From Carex sylvatica (lineage: Eukaryota; Streptophyta; Magnoliopsida; Poales; Cyperaceae), in the NCBI GenBank assembly GCA_964058845.1, contig CAXKVR010000066.1:186001-250000 (forward strand): a DNA stretch of 64,000 bases. The letters run 5' to 3'. Positions 28,211-35,952 of this stretch are shown here, piece by piece (position 1 is the stretch's first letter; each line of letters opens with the position of its first letter). The position numbers were made by a program, and so were the translations under genes. Under the pieces are notes generated by a model. The model ran no database searches. It had not been told where the DNA came from and worked only from the letters and a program-made list of their open reading frames with translations.

Positions 28211-28980
28211 TCACATTATAATCAATAATTATTCAAAAATTAAGAGACATGCTATTAGAGAATTTATATAATTCTGTATTTTAATTATTTTGAACCATGA
28301 TCTCGAATAATAATTTAATAATGTGATAATTTGGTATTTCTAAATACCAATGGGTATTTAGAAATAGGTATGATTATCAACAATTTAAATTCATCATTTG
28401 AAATCAATTTGATAGATTTTAAAATTGAGTTCACAAAGAGACTTAATGAACTTAGGAACACAATAATTCTACTCCTTTTTTTATATATAAGTTTCTAGGT
28501 GACGAGTAACTTGAATGACTGATACACAACTTCAAATGATCACGCTCCTGATTTATTCAAACATTGTGGTAACTCTCCAAATTGGAGGATGGTTCAAATG
28601 GCTCTATTTTATTTGGCCTCTAACATATTTCTATTTCTTATTTTTCTAGATAACAAATATTTAAAAAAAAATATGTCAAAATAAAACTGTTATAAGCAAT
28701 CTATATTATTTTCTCTACATTTGCATAAAAAATTATCACTCTTTAATTTTTATTTATATGAATCAATGAGTTGAAAAATCAACATTCATAATTTATCCAC
28801 ATCAATGTTAATATTTATAATTAATCAACATTCATAATGAAGTGTTGCTAAAGCCAATACAAGGCTTTTAAATTTAATACACTCAACATTGAGAAACAAA
28901 AAAAAAAAACCCTATATTAATTGATAAAAAATTGGTACATAAGATTAAAAACATAGATAATTTATGAAGTTGCTATCAGC
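28211..28980. other. AT-rich DNA left of the LTR retrotransposon
   Basis: No coding content was recognised. It may be the body of the minus-strand Helitron whose 3' end is at 28,181. Confidence 0.35.
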
Positions 28981-30426
28981 TGATATCTCCATATTATATC
29001 TGAATTATGGCCCTAATGTACACTGAAACCTGTGCTTTAAAGCCTAAGAATGTGGACTTTTTACTTATATTTCGATGAAATGTGGTACTGCTATGCTTCG
29101 TTTGGTATTTTGCAGGAAAAATGGCGAAAAACTGGTTCTGACTACTTTTCATACGGCCCGTATGATATTCTGTACGGACCGTACAAGTTCTGCCCAACCA
29201 CACAAAAGGATCCACAACAGAGGCATAGAGTCTCCAAGACAAAGCCCAAGCATACGGTCCGTACGGGATTCTGTACGGGCCGTACAACGCTGATTCGGAA
29301 AATCCAGCTGGAATCTGAATTGAGCACGATTTGAGGAGCCGATTAGGAAACCCCTGGAGACGTGATCTGGGGCATTAAAGGAGATATTTGACAGCAGAAA
29401 AGGGGAGATCAATCAATAACTTTCCATCATTCATTCTTGCTAGGCTTGGATAGGAAAAAAAGAAGAAGAGAAGGGAAGAACGCAAGTTTTGCAACGGATC
29501 TTCGGATTTTCCACTGTTTTATCATGAACTCTTTTATTTCTTGTTATTTGTGTTATCTTATGAACATGAGTAGCTAATTTACTTTGTTTCTAGGGTAAGA
29601 TGTAGTTTCTAGTTTAGCTTTGCTTGTATGCTACTTGGATTTTGTGTTGAACGCTTGGTTTTTACTTTGTTATGTAGTATTTTTATTGCTCTATTTGTGC
29701 TTACTTGAATCTGATTAGTCATCCCGTTAGATGAATGCGCACATCTAAGTGTTAGGAGCCAAGTCTATGAAATTCATTCCAACCTAATAAAGTATATGAA
29801 GTAGGGTGAAACCAAGGAGTACCCGAAAGACGAAACTTTCCTTGAGGCGAAAGTCCTTGGATACTTTTAGTAAACTAACAAGTAACTTAGATAAATTAGG
29901 CCAAAAAGCGAAAGTTGAGGTTTAACGCATCTAAGAGGGAAGTACTTGAGTCCGGTAATCGGGTATTAGGCCAAAATGCGAAAGTTGAGGTTAGGTATCT
30001 AGATCTGGTCAAAAGAAACCCTAAACACAGTATCAACACAGGAAACAGTAGCTGCAACATTAACTCGAGGTCCCATACGGACCGTACGGGAATATGTACG
30101 GGCCGTATGCCTTGAGGCTGAACAGAAATGAAATCTGAACCCTGGAAACTCCTTTTTATCAATTGAAAACAACTTTAATTATCTTTTACTGTCTTTTAAT
30201 CAGTAGAATTGTTAGAACTAAAACCAAACCAACTTCTCTCACTTCTAGAATCTTAAGTGATTTTAAGATAAGTCCAGTGTTTTTCTTCCGTCCCTGTGGA
30301 TCGATACCTGAGCATACTCAACGACAGGATAGTGCACTTGCTATCTGAATTGACAGAGTATAACAAAGGTTTAAGAAGTATAGCTTGCTATACTGAAACT
30401 TTTTAGCATATATTCTCGTGCGATCA
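28981..30426 (+). repeat. 5' LTR
   Basis: It begins TGATATCTCC and ends CGATCA. It contains three pairs of the CATACGG-N-CCGTACR palindrome (centres 29,157/29,178, 29,258/29,279 and 30,081/30,102). It also has a 70-bp-spaced direct repeat (29,896-29,922 and 29,966-29,992, AGGCCAAAA.GCGAAAGTTG). Short open frames in it are by-products of the palindromes. Confidence 0.96.
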
Positions 30427-30432
30427 AGTTTT

Positions 30433-30450
30433 TGGCGCCGTTGCCGGGGA
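30433..30450 (+). other. Primer-binding site, tRNA-Asp
   Basis: TGGCGCCGTTGCCGGGGA lies 6 bp after the 5' LTR. It is the exact complement of the CCA-end 18 nt of plant tRNA-Asp and would prime minus-strand cDNA synthesis. Confidence 0.93.
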
Positions 30451-30710
30451 CGGCAACTAAAATTCTATACTTTTTCTTATTTTTGCTTGATTCTAGATTT
30501 TAATTTTAATTTTTCGTATTCCATCTTTGCAGGAACATACTGGAAGAGTCACTGCCCAAGAACCACTACCAACTTAGAAGCAAAGGGCAAACTTCCAACT
30601 CATTTATTCCAGCACCACCACATCTGTCACCTCTCCGTACGGCCCGTACAAAATTCATACAGGCCGTACAACCTGACAACAGAGGCCAGACAGATCCAGA
30701 ACGAAGCAAA

Positions 30711-33227
30711 ATGAACAACCACGGTACTGAACAAGATCCACTCAATGATGGTACTGGACAAGGTCCAACCGCCGAGGATCAATTCTCTGATGACGAAGGA
30801 GCAAACTTAGCGCCAAGGACGTTGCGAGAGTTCAATGTCCCGCGAGCTAGAGATGTTAGAGATGTTAGAGGAGCAATCCGATTGCCAAGGATTGTAGGCA
30901 ACCAACCCAACTTCAATCCGGGCGTTGTCAACATCTTTCAGCAAAACACATTCCATGGCATGGATCATGAGGATCCGCATGCCCATGTTCAAACCTTCCT
31001 TGAATGCTGTGCCACCATTAAAATTAATGGCGCAACAGCTGATTATATTAGACTTGCTTTATTTCCTTTCACTCTTAGGGATAAAGCCAAGAAATGGTTA
31101 GGGTCATTACCAAGGGATTCAATCACCACTTGGAGGGAATTGTCCAAACTGTTTTTGACCAGATTTTTCCCCTATAAAAGAACTGCCAAGGTTAGGACCC
31201 AACTGACCAGTTTCAAACAAAGGTCTGATGAACCACTGAATGAGGCATGGGAAAGGTTTAGGGAATTGCAATACTCTTGTCCACATCATGGTATTCCCGA
31301 ATGGTTACTTATTCAATCTTTTTATGCTGGTTTAACTGATACCACTCGTACTTCTGTAGATGCAGTTGCAGGTGGAGCTCTCATGGATCGAGATGCTACT
31401 GAGGCAATGAACTTAATCGACAATATGGCGACTAACCAACAGTGGTCCGGCCGAGAAGGCAATCGAGCAACTGGAGGTGGCCGACTTGAGCTCGATCAGA
31501 TCACCGCTCTCACCGCCAAGTTTGACGCCATGCAGAAGGCTTTTGACAAGATGAGTGTCAAAGCACTTGGTAATCAGCAACCACAGCCTTGTGTTATGTG
31601 CGGAGACGAAGGGCACGAGTATGAGAATTGCCCGCTTGCGCAAAGGGATGAAGGGCCCGAGCGAGTTAATTCTCTCAACAGTGAACCATCCTACTTCCTA
31701 AAACCTCCTTTCAGCCGAACCTATTCCAAGGACCCGATTGAACAACAGAATTGGAGGTGGGAGCAAAACAATCCCACACAATTCAACAACAACCCTTCTG
31801 GCAGCAACAACAATAACAACCACAACTTCTACAACAATGCTGCATTCAATAACTCAAACAACCAAGCACCATATCCTGGACCATCCAAGCCCTATGTTGC
31901 CCCTGCAGTAGAAAACTTCATGCATGAACAAGGGAAGATGAATCAAATGATTTTCGAGCAAATGCAAGCGATTAGTGCTCAATTGGTCAGTTTGGCCCAA
32001 AACAAACCTCAAAGTGGGAGCCAAACCGCACCACCACAACCTGGAATGCTACCAAGCCAGCCAGAGATCAACCCCAGGGGAGAGGCCAAAGCAGTAACAT
32101 TGCGAAGTGGGACACAGTACCAAGGACCAGCCATACCTGTCGAGCCAGAAGCCGACCATACGGTCCGTACGAAAACCGTACAGCCCGTACAGAATGAATC
32201 CGACAGACAGAAAAAGAAGGTGACCGAGAAACCACCGCCCTACCGGCCACCAGTACCATTTCCACAGAGACTAGCCGAAACCCGACTCAATGAACAGTTC
32301 TCAAACTTTCTTGGAATTCTCAAGCAATTGCACATTACCATCCCATTCACCGAGGCTTTGACCCAAATGCCAACCTATGCTAAGTTTCTCAAAGATATCC
32401 TATCCAATAAACGAAGCTTGGGGGGGCGTGAGACGGTGAAACTCACAGAGCAGTGCAGCGCAATCTTGAGTAGCGAGCTCCCGCCAAAACTAGAAGATCC
32501 GGGCAAATTCTCCATTCCTTGCCAAATCGGGAAAGCTACCATTAAGCGAGCACTATGTGACTTAGGTGCCAGCGTGAGTCTCATGCCACGCACTATCTTT
32601 GAGCGCATGGGAGTAGGCGAGCTCAAACCCACGCGCATGACTTTACAGCTTGCTGATTCTTCTGTCAGGCTACCACTTGGGATAGTGGAGGATGTGCCAG
32701 TTCTGGTTGGCAAGTTTTATGTACCTGTTGACTTTGTTGTCATGGAGATGGAGGAGGACAAGGAAATCCCTATCATTCTGGGACGACCATTTTTAAAGAC
32801 AGCTCGAACACTCATTGACGTGGAGAATGGAACCCTGACTCTGCGGATTGGAGACGAAAAGGTCCAGTTCAACCTCAATCGAGCTATGAAGTACCCATCT
32901 GAACCAGACGAACCAGAAACATGTTGCGCGATCGACGTGGTTGACCAATTGGTCAAGGAACAAAGCCGTGAGGATTATGGTAAATTTTTTAAAAAATATC
33001 CTGATTATTTATCTGAATTGCAGGAGATGAAAGCTGCTCAAGAGAAGCTGCTTGCAACAGAAGCAAAGTCTGACACTCTGGAGGACCTGACACAAGGACT
33101 GCATGCATCTCACACGGTCCGTGCACCACAATCAGAGAAGATGGAGATGGCACACGGGGCGCACAAGGCTCACACAGGGGCAGTACACGGATCAGACTCA
33201 TCTCATACGGCCCGTACCCCAGCCTAG
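30711..33227 (+). CDS. Retrotransposon gag-protease polyprotein (838 aa)
   Basis: The frame is intact from ATG 30,711 to the TAG ending at 33,227. Domains in order are an acidic N-terminus; a retrotransposon gag domain (about residues 80-230, with KKWLGSLP, FLTRFFP and a SDEPLNEAWERFRELQ-type stretch); a CCHC zinc knuckle with C294, C297, H302 and C307 for RNA binding; an Asn/Gln-rich linker (about 340-400); and a retropepsin-like aspartic protease with D617-LGAS and the ILGRPFL flap-side motif near 689. The product should form particles and cleave itself. The element lacks polymerase and integrase, so these must come from an autonomous relative. In-frame copies of the palindrome encode HTVRT-type stretches near codons 482-493 and in the last 40 residues, so those segments are young additions. 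Upstream ATGs in the leader are few and no better start is seen. Confidence 0.93.
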   Translation: MNNHGTEQDPLNDGTGQGPTAEDQFSDDEGANLAPRTLREFNVPRARDVRDVRGAIRLPRIVGNQPNFNPGVVNIFQQNTFHGMDHEDPHAHVQTFLECCATIKINGATADYIRLALFPFTLRDKAKKWLGSLPRDSITTWRELSKLFLTRFFPYKRTAKVRTQLTSFKQRSDEPLNEAWERFRELQYSCPHHGIPEWLLIQSFYAGLTDTTRTSVDAVAGGALMDRDATEAMNLIDNMATNQQWSGREGNRATGGGRLELDQITALTAKFDAMQKAFDKMSVKALGNQQPQPCVMCGDEGHEYENCPLAQRDEGPERVNSLNSEPSYFLKPPFSRTYSKDPIEQQNWRWEQNNPTQFNNNPSGSNNNNNHNFYNNAAFNNSNNQAPYPGPSKPYVAPAVENFMHEQGKMNQMIFEQMQAISAQLVSLAQNKPQSGSQTAPPQPGMLPSQPEINPRGEAKAVTLRSGTQYQGPAIPVEPEADHTVRTKTVQPVQNESDRQKKKVTEKPPPYRPPVPFPQRLAETRLNEQFSNFLGILKQLHITIPFTEALTQMPTYAKFLKDILSNKRSLGGRETVKLTEQCSAILSSELPPKLEDPGKFSIPCQIGKATIKRALCDLGASVSLMPRTIFERMGVGELKPTRMTLQLADSSVRLPLGIVEDVPVLVGKFYVPVDFVVMEMEEDKEIPIILGRPFLKTARTLIDVENGTLTLRIGDEKVQFNLNRAMKYPSEPDEPETCCAIDVVDQLVKEQSREDYGKFFKKYPDYLSELQEMKAAQEKLLATEAKSDTLEDLTQGLHASHTVRAPQSEKMEMAHGAHKAHTGAVHGSDSSHTARTPA

Positions 33228-34501
33228 ACAGAGCAACCAACTCCTGAACCCAAACCATTTCCAGCCAACCCCAACCTCTTGGATGATTTGAAAGCTCTTC
33301 AAATGAGGATTTGGAGTTTTATAATGCAAGCTCAGCAAACTGTGATCGGAGATTTGATCGAGAAGTTCACATGCACGAAACCAGCCACCTGCCATACCAG
33401 CAGAATCAGCGCCAGTTCACACGGACCGTACAGATATCATCCGGGCCGTGCAGACCAGCACACCATCCGTGCACCTCAGAGGTGGGCGCTCCGCCCAGAT
33501 CCACCCGACCCACCTCCCACCAATCGGTGAGGCACCCCCGCTTCACCCCTCACTCCATGTCTGGTTAGTTTCCATATTTTCTTCTATTTACTTTTTCTTG
33601 TGTGAATTCAAGCATTGAGGACAATGCTTCATTCAAGCTTGGGGGGGTGGAATAGAAGAAGAAAATTGTATCTGCATTTTAGGTCATGTTTATTTTTCAA
33701 AAATTTGCGTGAATTGCGAGAATTAGGGTCAATTTGAGAAATTTTGGTTGTGACATGGTTGAATTTGGGAAATTGGAAATAACCACACATTTGGTTGAAA
33801 GAATTATAAACGATAGTCTGTTTTGGGACTTTGTGGGATTGAATTGAATTGTGTCAAGAAAGCATTTGAAACCGGACTATGCCTTGTAAAAATAGAAAAA
33901 TGGGATTTCAAAGTAATAGAAAGATTGGGACATCCATTGGTATGAATGAATATCATTGGATATGTGTATTCATGATGTATACGAAGGGAAAAGATGGAGA
34001 ATATAAGAGTACTGGCAATAAGCCGTGTTAGGCGCCTTTGAGCTCGTCTCCCATACGGACCGTACCCAGATCATACGAACCGTACACCTATAAAAAAAAA
34101 AAAAAAAAAAACCAAAAAGAGCCTTTACAAACATCAACACACGAAGTCCGTGACTTTCTGACCTAAGCTTGTTCCAAGCTTGGGGGAATTTCCAACCACA
34201 AATGAGGGCATAAATTTGGTAAAGAATGAACTATTGATACGTTTGATTCCTTAATTCTTACAAATAGCAATACATTCTTGAAGTTAGGGTTTGATCAATT
34301 GAGTTGTGGGATGAATTAAAGTTGACCAAAGGAAACCAAGTTACTATCTGAAATGACTCTATTAGATCTCTAACGAACGCAAGATCATGCATCTTTTTCC
34401 TCTTAGTAGATTAACTTGCATTTAGGTAAGTCCAACGACCCGAACCACACCTAAGTTAGAATTTTTGCTTGAGGGCAAGCAAAGTTCAAGCTTGGGGGAT
34501 T
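33228..34501 (+). other. 3' non-coding internal region of the retrotransposon
   Basis: About 1.27 kb hold no long frame and no pol or env signature. They contain two more palindrome pairs (centres 33,425/33,445 and 34,059/34,079), a poly-A run at 34,091-34,110, and AAGCTTGGGGG-type purine tracts at 33,635, 34,176 and 34,488. The last is the functional polypurine tract. Confidence 0.8.
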
Positions 34502-35947
34502 TGATATCTCCATATTATATCTGAATTATGGCCCTAATGTACACTGAAACCTGTGCTTTAAAGCCTAAGAATGTGGACTTTTTACTTATATTTCGATGAA
34601 ATGTGGTACTGCTATGCTTCGTTTGGTATTTTGTAGGAAAAATGGCGAAAAACTGGTTCTGACTACTTTTCATACGGCCCGTATGATATTCTGTACGGAC
34701 CGTACAAGTTCTGCCCAACCACACAGAAGGATCCACAACAGAGGCATAGAGTCTCCAAGACAAAGCCCAGGCATACGGTCCGTACGGGATTCTGTACGGG
34801 CCGTACAACGCTGATTCGGAAAATCCAGCTGGAATCTGAATTGAGCACGATTTGAGGAGCCGATTAGGAAACCCCTGGAGACGTGATCTGGGGCATTAAA
34901 GGAGATATTTGACAGCAGAAAAGGGGAGATCAATCAATAACTTTCCATCATTCATTCTTGCTAGGCTTGGATAGGAAAAAAAGAAGAAGAGAAGGGAAGA
35001 ACGCAAGTTTTGCAACGGATCTTCGGATTTTCCACTGTTTTATCATGAACTCTTTTATTTCTTGTTATTTGTGTTATCTTATGAACATGAGTAGCTAATT
35101 TACTTTGTTTCTAGGGTAAGATGTAGTTTCTAGTTTAGCTTTGCTTGTATGCTACTTGGATTTTGTGTTGAACGCTTGGTTTTTACTTTGTTATGTAGTA
35201 TTTTTATTGCTCTATTTGTGCTTGCTTGAATCTGATTAGTCATCCCGTTAGATGAATGCGCACATCTAAGTGTTAGGAGCCAAGTCTATGAAATTCATTC
35301 CAACCGAATAAAGTATATGAAGTAGGGTGAAACCAAGGAGTACCCGAAAGGCGAAACTTTTCTTGAGGCGAAAGTCCTTGGATACTTTTAGTAAACTAAC
35401 AAGTAACTTAGATAAATTAGGCCAAAATGCAAAAGTTGAGGTTTAACGCATCTAAGAGGGAAGTACTTGAGTCCGGTAATCGGGTATTAGGCCAAAATGC
35501 GAAAGTTGAGGTTAGGTATCTAGATCTGGTCAAAAGAAACCCTAAACACAGTATCAACACAGGAAACAGTAGCTGCAACATTAACTCGAGGTCCCATACG
35601 GACCGTACGGGAATATGTACGGGCCGTATGCCTCGAGGCTGAACAGAAATGAAATCTGAACCCTGGAAACTCCTTTTTATCAATTGAAAACAACTTTAAT
35701 TATCTTTTACTGTCTTTTAATCAGTAGAATTGTTAGAACTAAAACCAAACCAACTTCTCTCACTTCTAGAATCTTAAGTGATTTTAAGATAAGTCCAGTG
35801 TTTTTCTTCCGTCCCTGTGGATCGATACCTGAGCATACTCAACGACAGGATAGTGCACTTGCTATCTGAATTGACAGAGTATAACAAAGGTTTAAGAAGT
35901 ATAGCTTGCTATACTGAAACTTTTTAGCATATATTCTCGTGCGATCA
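34502..35947 (+). repeat. 3' LTR
   Basis: It has the same length as the 5' LTR and is about 99% identical. The palindrome pairs are preserved at +5,521 bp. It is followed by the TCAGC target duplicate. Confidence 0.96.
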
Positions 35948-35952
35948 TCAGC

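Follow-up and report, generated by a model that had tools for sequence, protein, structure and literature searches.

Helically phased palindrome pairs in a pol-less Athila-type retrotransposon of Carex sylvatica as candidate sites for an oligomeric DNA-binding protein

A long terminal repeat (LTR) retrotransposon of 6,967 bp lies at positions 28981–35947 of a 64,000-nucleotide stretch of the Carex sylvatica genome (contig CAXKVR010000066.1, positions 186,001 to 250,000; hereafter the window), and it carries 15-bp palindromes that come in pairs, with centres 20 or 21 bp apart. Why would a mobile element hold such pairs in its LTRs, its leader and even its reading frame? Is the spacing a trait of the family? 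Do the palindromes work as DNA or as RNA, and what would recognise them? The best reading of the sequence comparisons presented here is that the pairs probably serve as arrayed recognition sites, in double-stranded DNA, for an oligomeric protein with dyad symmetry, encoded either by the element or by the host.

The motif was derived from 183 pair sites in copies of the element, searched at spacings of 19–22 bp with at most four mismatches; 110 of them have a step of 20 bp, 72 of 21 bp and one of 22 bp. The resulting 15-bp dyad is YRTACGGNCCGTAYR, with a CGG...CCG core. Allowing up to three mismatches, CATACGGNCCGTAYG gives 44 rows in the window on both strands, against a mean of 1.76 and a maximum of 7 in shuffled sequence. 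With the LTR counted once, there are seven YRTACGGNCCGTAYR pairs, none assigned to a strand, and all lie at the centres reported in the initial annotation of this locus. Three pairs in the 5' LTR have a step of 21 bp: 29150–29185 (centres 29157/29178), 29251–29286 (29258/29279; starting 101 bp past the first) and 30074–30109 (30081/30102). The other four have a step of 20 bp and are found in the leader and gag N-terminal region (30636–30670, centres 30643/30663), in the gag–protease linker (HTVRTKTVQPVQ, 32157–32191, 32164/32184), 3' of the open reading frame (ORF) in degenerate form (33418–33452, 33425/33445) and in the 3' non-coding part (34052–34086, 34059/34079). A stricter filter retains 10 of these 14 dyads, those centred at 30663, 33425, 33445 and 34079 being too degenerate. 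The LTR pairs are repeated in the 3' LTR at 34671–34706, 34772–34807 and 35595–35630 (centres 34678/34699, 34779/34800 and 35602/35623), which the annotation had not listed. It had also noted a single dyad at 33211 and decayed ones near 33118 and 33158. The first two are present, each with a decayed partner 20 bp upstream, in a half-decayed pair at 33184–33218 (intact dyad at 33204) and a decayed pair at 33091–33125 (dyad family D3), both of 20 bp and unstranded; the dyad near 33158 was not recovered.

How general is the two-turn step? Across 63,982,083 bases of the genome that hosts the element, single TACGGNCCGTA cores number 1166, compared with 23 occurrences of a reversed control. Two exact cores at gaps of 8–12 bp occur 401 times (reversed control 0), and their steps are 21 bp in 273 cases (by subtraction), 20 bp in 127 (gap 9) and 19 bp in one (gap 8). 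Gaps of 11–40 bp contribute 27 exact neighbours, all at gap 31 (42 bp), which are triples, typically with a damaged third dyad in the middle; no exact neighbours were found in this genome at other spacings from 11 to 51 bp, the reversed controls again giving 0. Two-helical-turn spacing is thus a property of the whole family: of 428 exact neighbours, 400 have a step of 20 or 21 bp and 27 a step of 42 bp. Random spacing, or equal frequency in unrelated DNA, had been set beforehand as a possible refutation of paired sites; the genome-wide spacing counts and a scan of prokaryote genomes found neither. A further 170 neighbours occur at gaps of 61–90 bp, mostly LTR and linker pairs among the matches listed (about the first fifty). 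In a pol-bearing copy from the same genome, named C42, the distance from pair to pair is 101, 102 and 102 bp at three places, with unrelated sequence in between. Tandem duplication of a 102-bp unit was considered as the source of these distances and rejected, as the sequence adjoining the pairs is only 17–30% identical in register.

Prokaryote genomes (nominally 257 billion bases) contain the paired pattern 17 times, once at 19 bp, four times at 21 bp, four at 22 bp and eight at 23 bp, and these 17 matches show no preference for 20 or 21 bp. The viral contigs searched gave no match to the dyad pair or to the Carex pol; they hold 97 stretches with GATGCGANTCGCATC singles, at one place each in the 80 of 97 listed. 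Three places in the Carex genome were checked for kinship, of which one clearly belongs to the family, one is partly similar to diverged copies and one is dissimilar. At this last locus (C85:73200–73800), which resembles none of the eight sequences compared with it, a 19-bp TACGGNCCGTA pair is accompanied by two weaker dyads; the locus may belong to a different transposon that uses this motif.

What kind of element carries the pairs? The plus-strand ORF at 30711–33227 (838 amino acids from its ATG, in a frame open from 30510) encodes gag and an aspartic protease, and no reverse transcriptase (RT), integrase or other polymerase domain was found in it. Pol-bearing copies exist in the same genome: C42 has a gag-pol frame of 1949 codons in the order gag–protease–RT–RNase H–integrase, its protease giving Pfam matches near the curated cut-offs, and 3' of this frame stands a 435-amino-acid ORF of the ATHILA family PF03078 (56.3 bits, cut-off 20.2). 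The missing polymerase domain and the C42 relative with its PF03078 ORF are the grounds on which the window element is classed, by sequence, as a pol-less Athila-type (Ty3/gypsy) retrotransposon. It is young, its two LTRs differ by 10 substitutions (0.7%), none within a dyad, and it is without the C42 stretch that contains the PF03078 ORF. Conversely, C42 has no match to a stretch of about 800 bp in the pol-less element (approximately 32908–33700, including the decayed pairs). A search with gag returned several copies 87–97% identical to the protease half of the window element, whereas most pol-length copies are about 70% identical there, which suggests that the pol-less elements form a separate family. 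Arabidopsis Athila elements without pol, consisting of LTRs and a gag ORF and thought to be mobilised in trans, are described in the available text of PMC2410132; as in Carex, they exist alongside pol-bearing relatives with an additional ORF. Unlike the Carex case, that account does not use the term "palindrome" in its main text, according to a term search.

The distribution of the sites within the element bears out the initial annotation, which had placed pairs in LTR, leader, coding and 3' non-coding parts: they occupy the LTR and the leader as well as the coding linkers and the tail, in numbers that vary among copies. In C42 the dyads are encoded in the gag N-terminus, in the gag–protease linker (two pairs, 102 bp apart, compared with one in the window element), in the protease–RT linker (two pairs) and in the RNase H–integrase linker, where they give the peptide run HTGRT-HTACT-HTDRT-HTDRI in 21-bp steps; further dyads occur in its LTR and 3' tail. 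Compared with the Pfam matches, the C42 dyads are located between domains and never inside one. Are the sites held by selection? To calculate diversity, copies were retrieved with the pair masked and aligned locally, with 90-bp flanks, in place of a whole-locus alignment of 30 copies, which misaligned; 13 sites had too few copies. With C42 as reference, the core is less variable than the flanks at all seven sites with enough copies, despite the presence of CpGs in every core, while the centre base is more variable than the flanks at five of the seven and the spacer at six. Over 15 alignments, in which LTR copies recur, mean diversity is 0.031 in the core, 0.072 in the flanks, 0.139 in the spacer and 0.188 at the centre.

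Such palindromes would suit hairpins for packaging, dimerisation or kissing in the element's RNA, an alternative already raised in the initial annotation. All seven pairs can indeed fold as a single hairpin, five of them better than any of 200 shuffles and the remaining two matched by 11 of 200. Yet the pairs can fold without covarying, so folding alone is no evidence for an RNA role. Among 92 distinct dyads, 65 core changes are one-sided and none is two-sided, and this absence of compensatory change speaks against RNA stems. The commonest outer combination, A at position 2 and C at position 14, cannot pair; it occurs in 173 of the 361 purine–pyrimidine dyads (of 366 in all) and in 32 of 87 distinct ones. 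Between the two dyads of a pair, left–right pairing falls below the expectation under independence at five of five variable positions. Triples, a tandem array and ladders of 21 and 19 bp are also ill-suited to one hairpin per pair. A hairpin or kissing role is therefore rejected on the covariation evidence despite foldability, and we consider RNA structure the least probable of all the explanations weighed here; the dyads are read, from their sequence variation, as double-stranded DNA sites.

If the sites are DNA, do they change with the element that carries them? Diverged relatives in the same genome (68–73% identical to the first half of the query) were compared at five of eleven places noted. 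Their outer bases have changed from TACGG to CACGG and the steps stay at 19–21 bp. Positions 3/13 are T/A in 26 of 26 paired C42 dyads and C/G in 28 of 33 dyads from four diverged copies, 14 of these 28 belonging to one tandem array; a fifth copy has no paired dyads by the same filter and a few by a looser one. The array is in the diverged copy C328 (75000–82000), where 14 tandem TACACGAC(C/T)CGTGTA dyads with a period of 21 bp, and one more at the edge, lie upstream of gag. It resembles a satellite (approximately 219–527 of that segment), its 21-bp unit being built on the dyad TACACGACCCGTGTA. Further diverged copies contain ladders with steps of 21 and 19 bp.

Beyond the Carex sylvatica genome, only back-translated proteins were available, 142 in all (the window protein and 141 relatives), and each was scored for the best palindrome shared over three pairs at spacings of 16–27 bp. 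Relatives are no richer than other proteins in high-scoring offsets for single dyads, a score weak alone, so only repeated, spaced dyads were counted. Above 60 bits, six proteins score at 20 bp against none of the shuffles, and 16 at 21 bp against one (one shuffle per protein); other spacings give 0–3 proteins and 0–1 shuffles, some of these hits being low-complexity repeats. A control that keeps repeats, in which amino acids are relabelled 30 times per protein, was applied to 14 proteins chosen by score. At 20 bp none of the 30 controls reaches the score of the window protein, Asparagus P0015, Carex P0007 and P0004, or Rhynchospora P0036, P0070 and P0027, the palindrome of P0027 at 20 bp differing from its palindrome at 21 bp. 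At 21 bp none of 30 reaches P0007, P0036, P0042 or P0038, and one of 30 reaches P0028; the control is not clearly beaten by Silene P0017 (7/30) and P0099 (2/30), by P0031 (9/30), P0027 (9/30) or Carex P0018 (3/30). P0070 also beats the control at 19 bp (0/30) and nearly does so at 22 bp (1/30), which is taken as a repeat effect. The inferred arms are CACACGG in Asparagus, GATGCGA in Carex (P0007, P0004) and, in Rhynchospora, ATTTCGG (P0036), CTGGCGA (P0070), AACTCGG and TGTTCGG. These back-translated sequences suggest that relatives in Asparagus, Carex and Rhynchospora use other palindromes at the same spacing. The annotated Asparagus officinalis protein P0015 has one and the same stretch at both ends and contains several dyad peptides; its annotation perhaps spans the repeated ends of a retroelement.

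Could these sites be explained without a coevolving partner? They might be LTR or enhancer boxes recognised by a host transcription factor, a view that shares protein binding with the preferred one and that we hold possible, with rather less than even chances. Because CCGTAC/GTACGG half-sites are common, a GTAC-binding SBP/SPL protein is a candidate for this factor. At least one GTAC half-site is kept in 328 of 366 dyads, and the A2–T14 combination, which lacks any such half-site, occurs in 11 of 361 dyads where the margins would predict about 41; the available part of PMC2829016 also proposes the palindromes of Sireviruses as possible cis-regulators. On the other hand, many pairs are distant from the LTR, within coding linkers, and GTAC is absent from the inferred Carex and Rhynchospora palindromes and from the CACGG form of the diverged copies, relatives that weaken SPL binding as a general explanation. 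Could the host instead be targeting CG- and CHG-rich palindromes for methylation or small RNAs, with recombination rather than use keeping them? The core does contain CG and CCG sites, and maize Sirevirus palindromes are small-RNA hotspots according to the text at hand of PMC5311732 (citing Bousios 2016). This methylation magnet, also suggested by the initial annotation, predicts neither the fixed 20/21-bp spacing nor cores less variable than their flanks despite CpG, and, with the inferred Carex palindromes free of CGG/CCG, it is not supported as a general account; it appears improbable. We give equally little credence to a selfish double palindrome of 35–36 bp that copies itself within the element by template switching and has no function. 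The window element and C42 do differ by one of two linker pairs, with a breakpoint inside the pair, but core constraint, and sequence that changes in concert at constant geometry, speak against such a process.

What would bind the sites? The fixed step of two turns, the freer centre, the constraint on the cores, dyads without pairing logic and concerted change together fit a coevolving oligomeric DNA-binding protein, and binding, oligomeric state, binder and effect are what we infer from them. Each 15-bp YRTACGGNCCGTAYR dyad would be bound by one two-fold symmetric protein unit, and at least two such units, 20–21 bp or two helical turns apart, would sit on the same DNA face as a tetramer or higher oligomer. 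In the Athila lineage the site would have spread through LTRs and reading-frame linkers and been kept by selection on its cores. At constant geometry, joint change would affect the outer bases and, it seems, the entire palindrome in other plants, as a trans-acting protein coevolved with its sites. The most likely job of this protein would be element-specific control of transcription or chromatin, perhaps anti-silencing of the kind that VANC performs in VANDAL transposons. Anti-silencing is placed first among the functions, tentatively, by analogy with VANC (PMC5735166, PMC10398659, as far as their accessible text goes): those texts describe short, element-specific target motifs, multiplied within one transposon family and diverging fast between relatives, as here. 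The VANC21 and VANC6 motifs they report are, in contrast, non-palindromic and located within tandem repeats in VANDAL sequence that is non-coding. VANC carries DUF1985, a domain that was found neither in the 435-amino-acid ATHILA ORF nor in any of its 14 family members. That ORF is nonetheless a natural candidate for the binder, being element-coded and unexplained. PF03078 matches 14 of 14 homologues, and five other families match one member each, weakly (best E 0.0035). In its predicted model a long C-terminal helix (368–428) is among the best-predicted parts (block pLDDT 69–79) and would suit oligomerisation. Athilas of several monocot lineages might then, speculatively, possess a private, fast-evolving anti-silencing or activation system, in which an element-coded oligomer, perhaps the ATHILA ORF, acts on phased dyads in LTRs and gag-pol linker codons, with a lineage-specific palindrome, a shared 20/21-bp geometry and pol-less copies served through the sites they have kept.

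Several observations weigh against an oligomer bound to DNA. No DNA-binding domain was recognised in the 435-amino-acid ORF, and its predicted model is poor (mean pLDDT 47, from an alignment of 13 of the 14 homologues), leaving the fold unusable. The core is more variable than the flanks in one of the 15 alignments, which mixes two neighbouring pairs, and less variable in 14; the centre exceeds the flanks in only 12 of 15. Exchange between pairs could be a partial cause of core conservation. The association of the outer bases weakens considerably if each distinct dyad is counted once (Fisher p 0.02 and 0.03), the palindromes of other plants rest on back-translation of proteins picked by score (14 of 142), and every one of the seven pairs is able to form the single RNA hairpin discussed above.

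The remaining anatomy of the window element is that of an LTR retrotransposon. A target-site duplication TCAGC (28976–28980 and 35948–35952, unstranded) encloses plus-strand LTRs of 1446 bp each, starting with TG and ending with CA (28981–30426 and 34502–35947). The primer-binding site read from the sequence, TGGCGCCGTTGCCGGGGA (30433–30450, plus strand), we take to be of tRNA-Asp type. The polypurine tract (PPT) AAGCTTGGGGGATT, likewise read from the sequence (34488–34501, plus strand), adjoins the 3' LTR and is the last of three PPT-like AAGCTTGGGGG copies (33635–33647, 34176–34188 and 34488–34501), which resemble the multiple PPTs of Sireviruses. An Rfam match to the plant snoRNA snoR71 (48.2 bits, gathering 40) lies at 31188–31294 on the minus strand, antisense to gag; perhaps that family was seeded with retrotransposon sequence, or the snoRNA derives from a retrotransposon.

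Have such sites been seen before? No known plant precedent came to mind in the initial annotation; one exists, in the CGG–CCG palindromic repeats of Sirevirus LTRs. According to the accessible text of PMC2829016, these Ty1/copia elements have palindromic boxes, most with a CGG–CCG core, in their LTRs and before env, a regulatory role has been proposed for them, and among the Ty1/copia elements compared there the repeated motif is confined to Sireviruses. The likeness extends to a box sequence that varies between elements, to further internal copies besides those in the LTR, and to multiple PPT-like tracts. Sirevirus boxes number at least eight per element, with LTR copies mostly in the upper half; the window element reaches this number, with four of six LTR dyads in the upper half, two near the end and others in coding linkers. 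Its host element is a Ty3/gypsy Athila, not Ty1/copia, and the fixed 20/21-bp pair spacing and the gag-pol linker sites set it apart, helical spacing not being reported in the accessible text of PMC2829016. Among the titles and abstract openings listed by a literature search, with most subscription journals outside its scope, none concerns helically phased palindrome pairs in Athila or other Ty3 elements. What is new relative to the Sirevirus palindromes is the other superfamily, the helical phasing and the position inside coding linkers.

Should the protein that binds the sites prove to be encoded by the element, an LTR retrotransposon would be shown to hold protein-binding arrays within its own reading frame, and the palindromes of Sireviruses and Athilas would represent the same strategy in two superfamilies. 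The palindrome would also be a tag by which autonomous and parasitic copies could be sorted according to the system they answer to. In that case the extra ORF of Athila elements, long without an explanation, would also gain a directly testable role, and so would the persistence of Athila in plant genomes.

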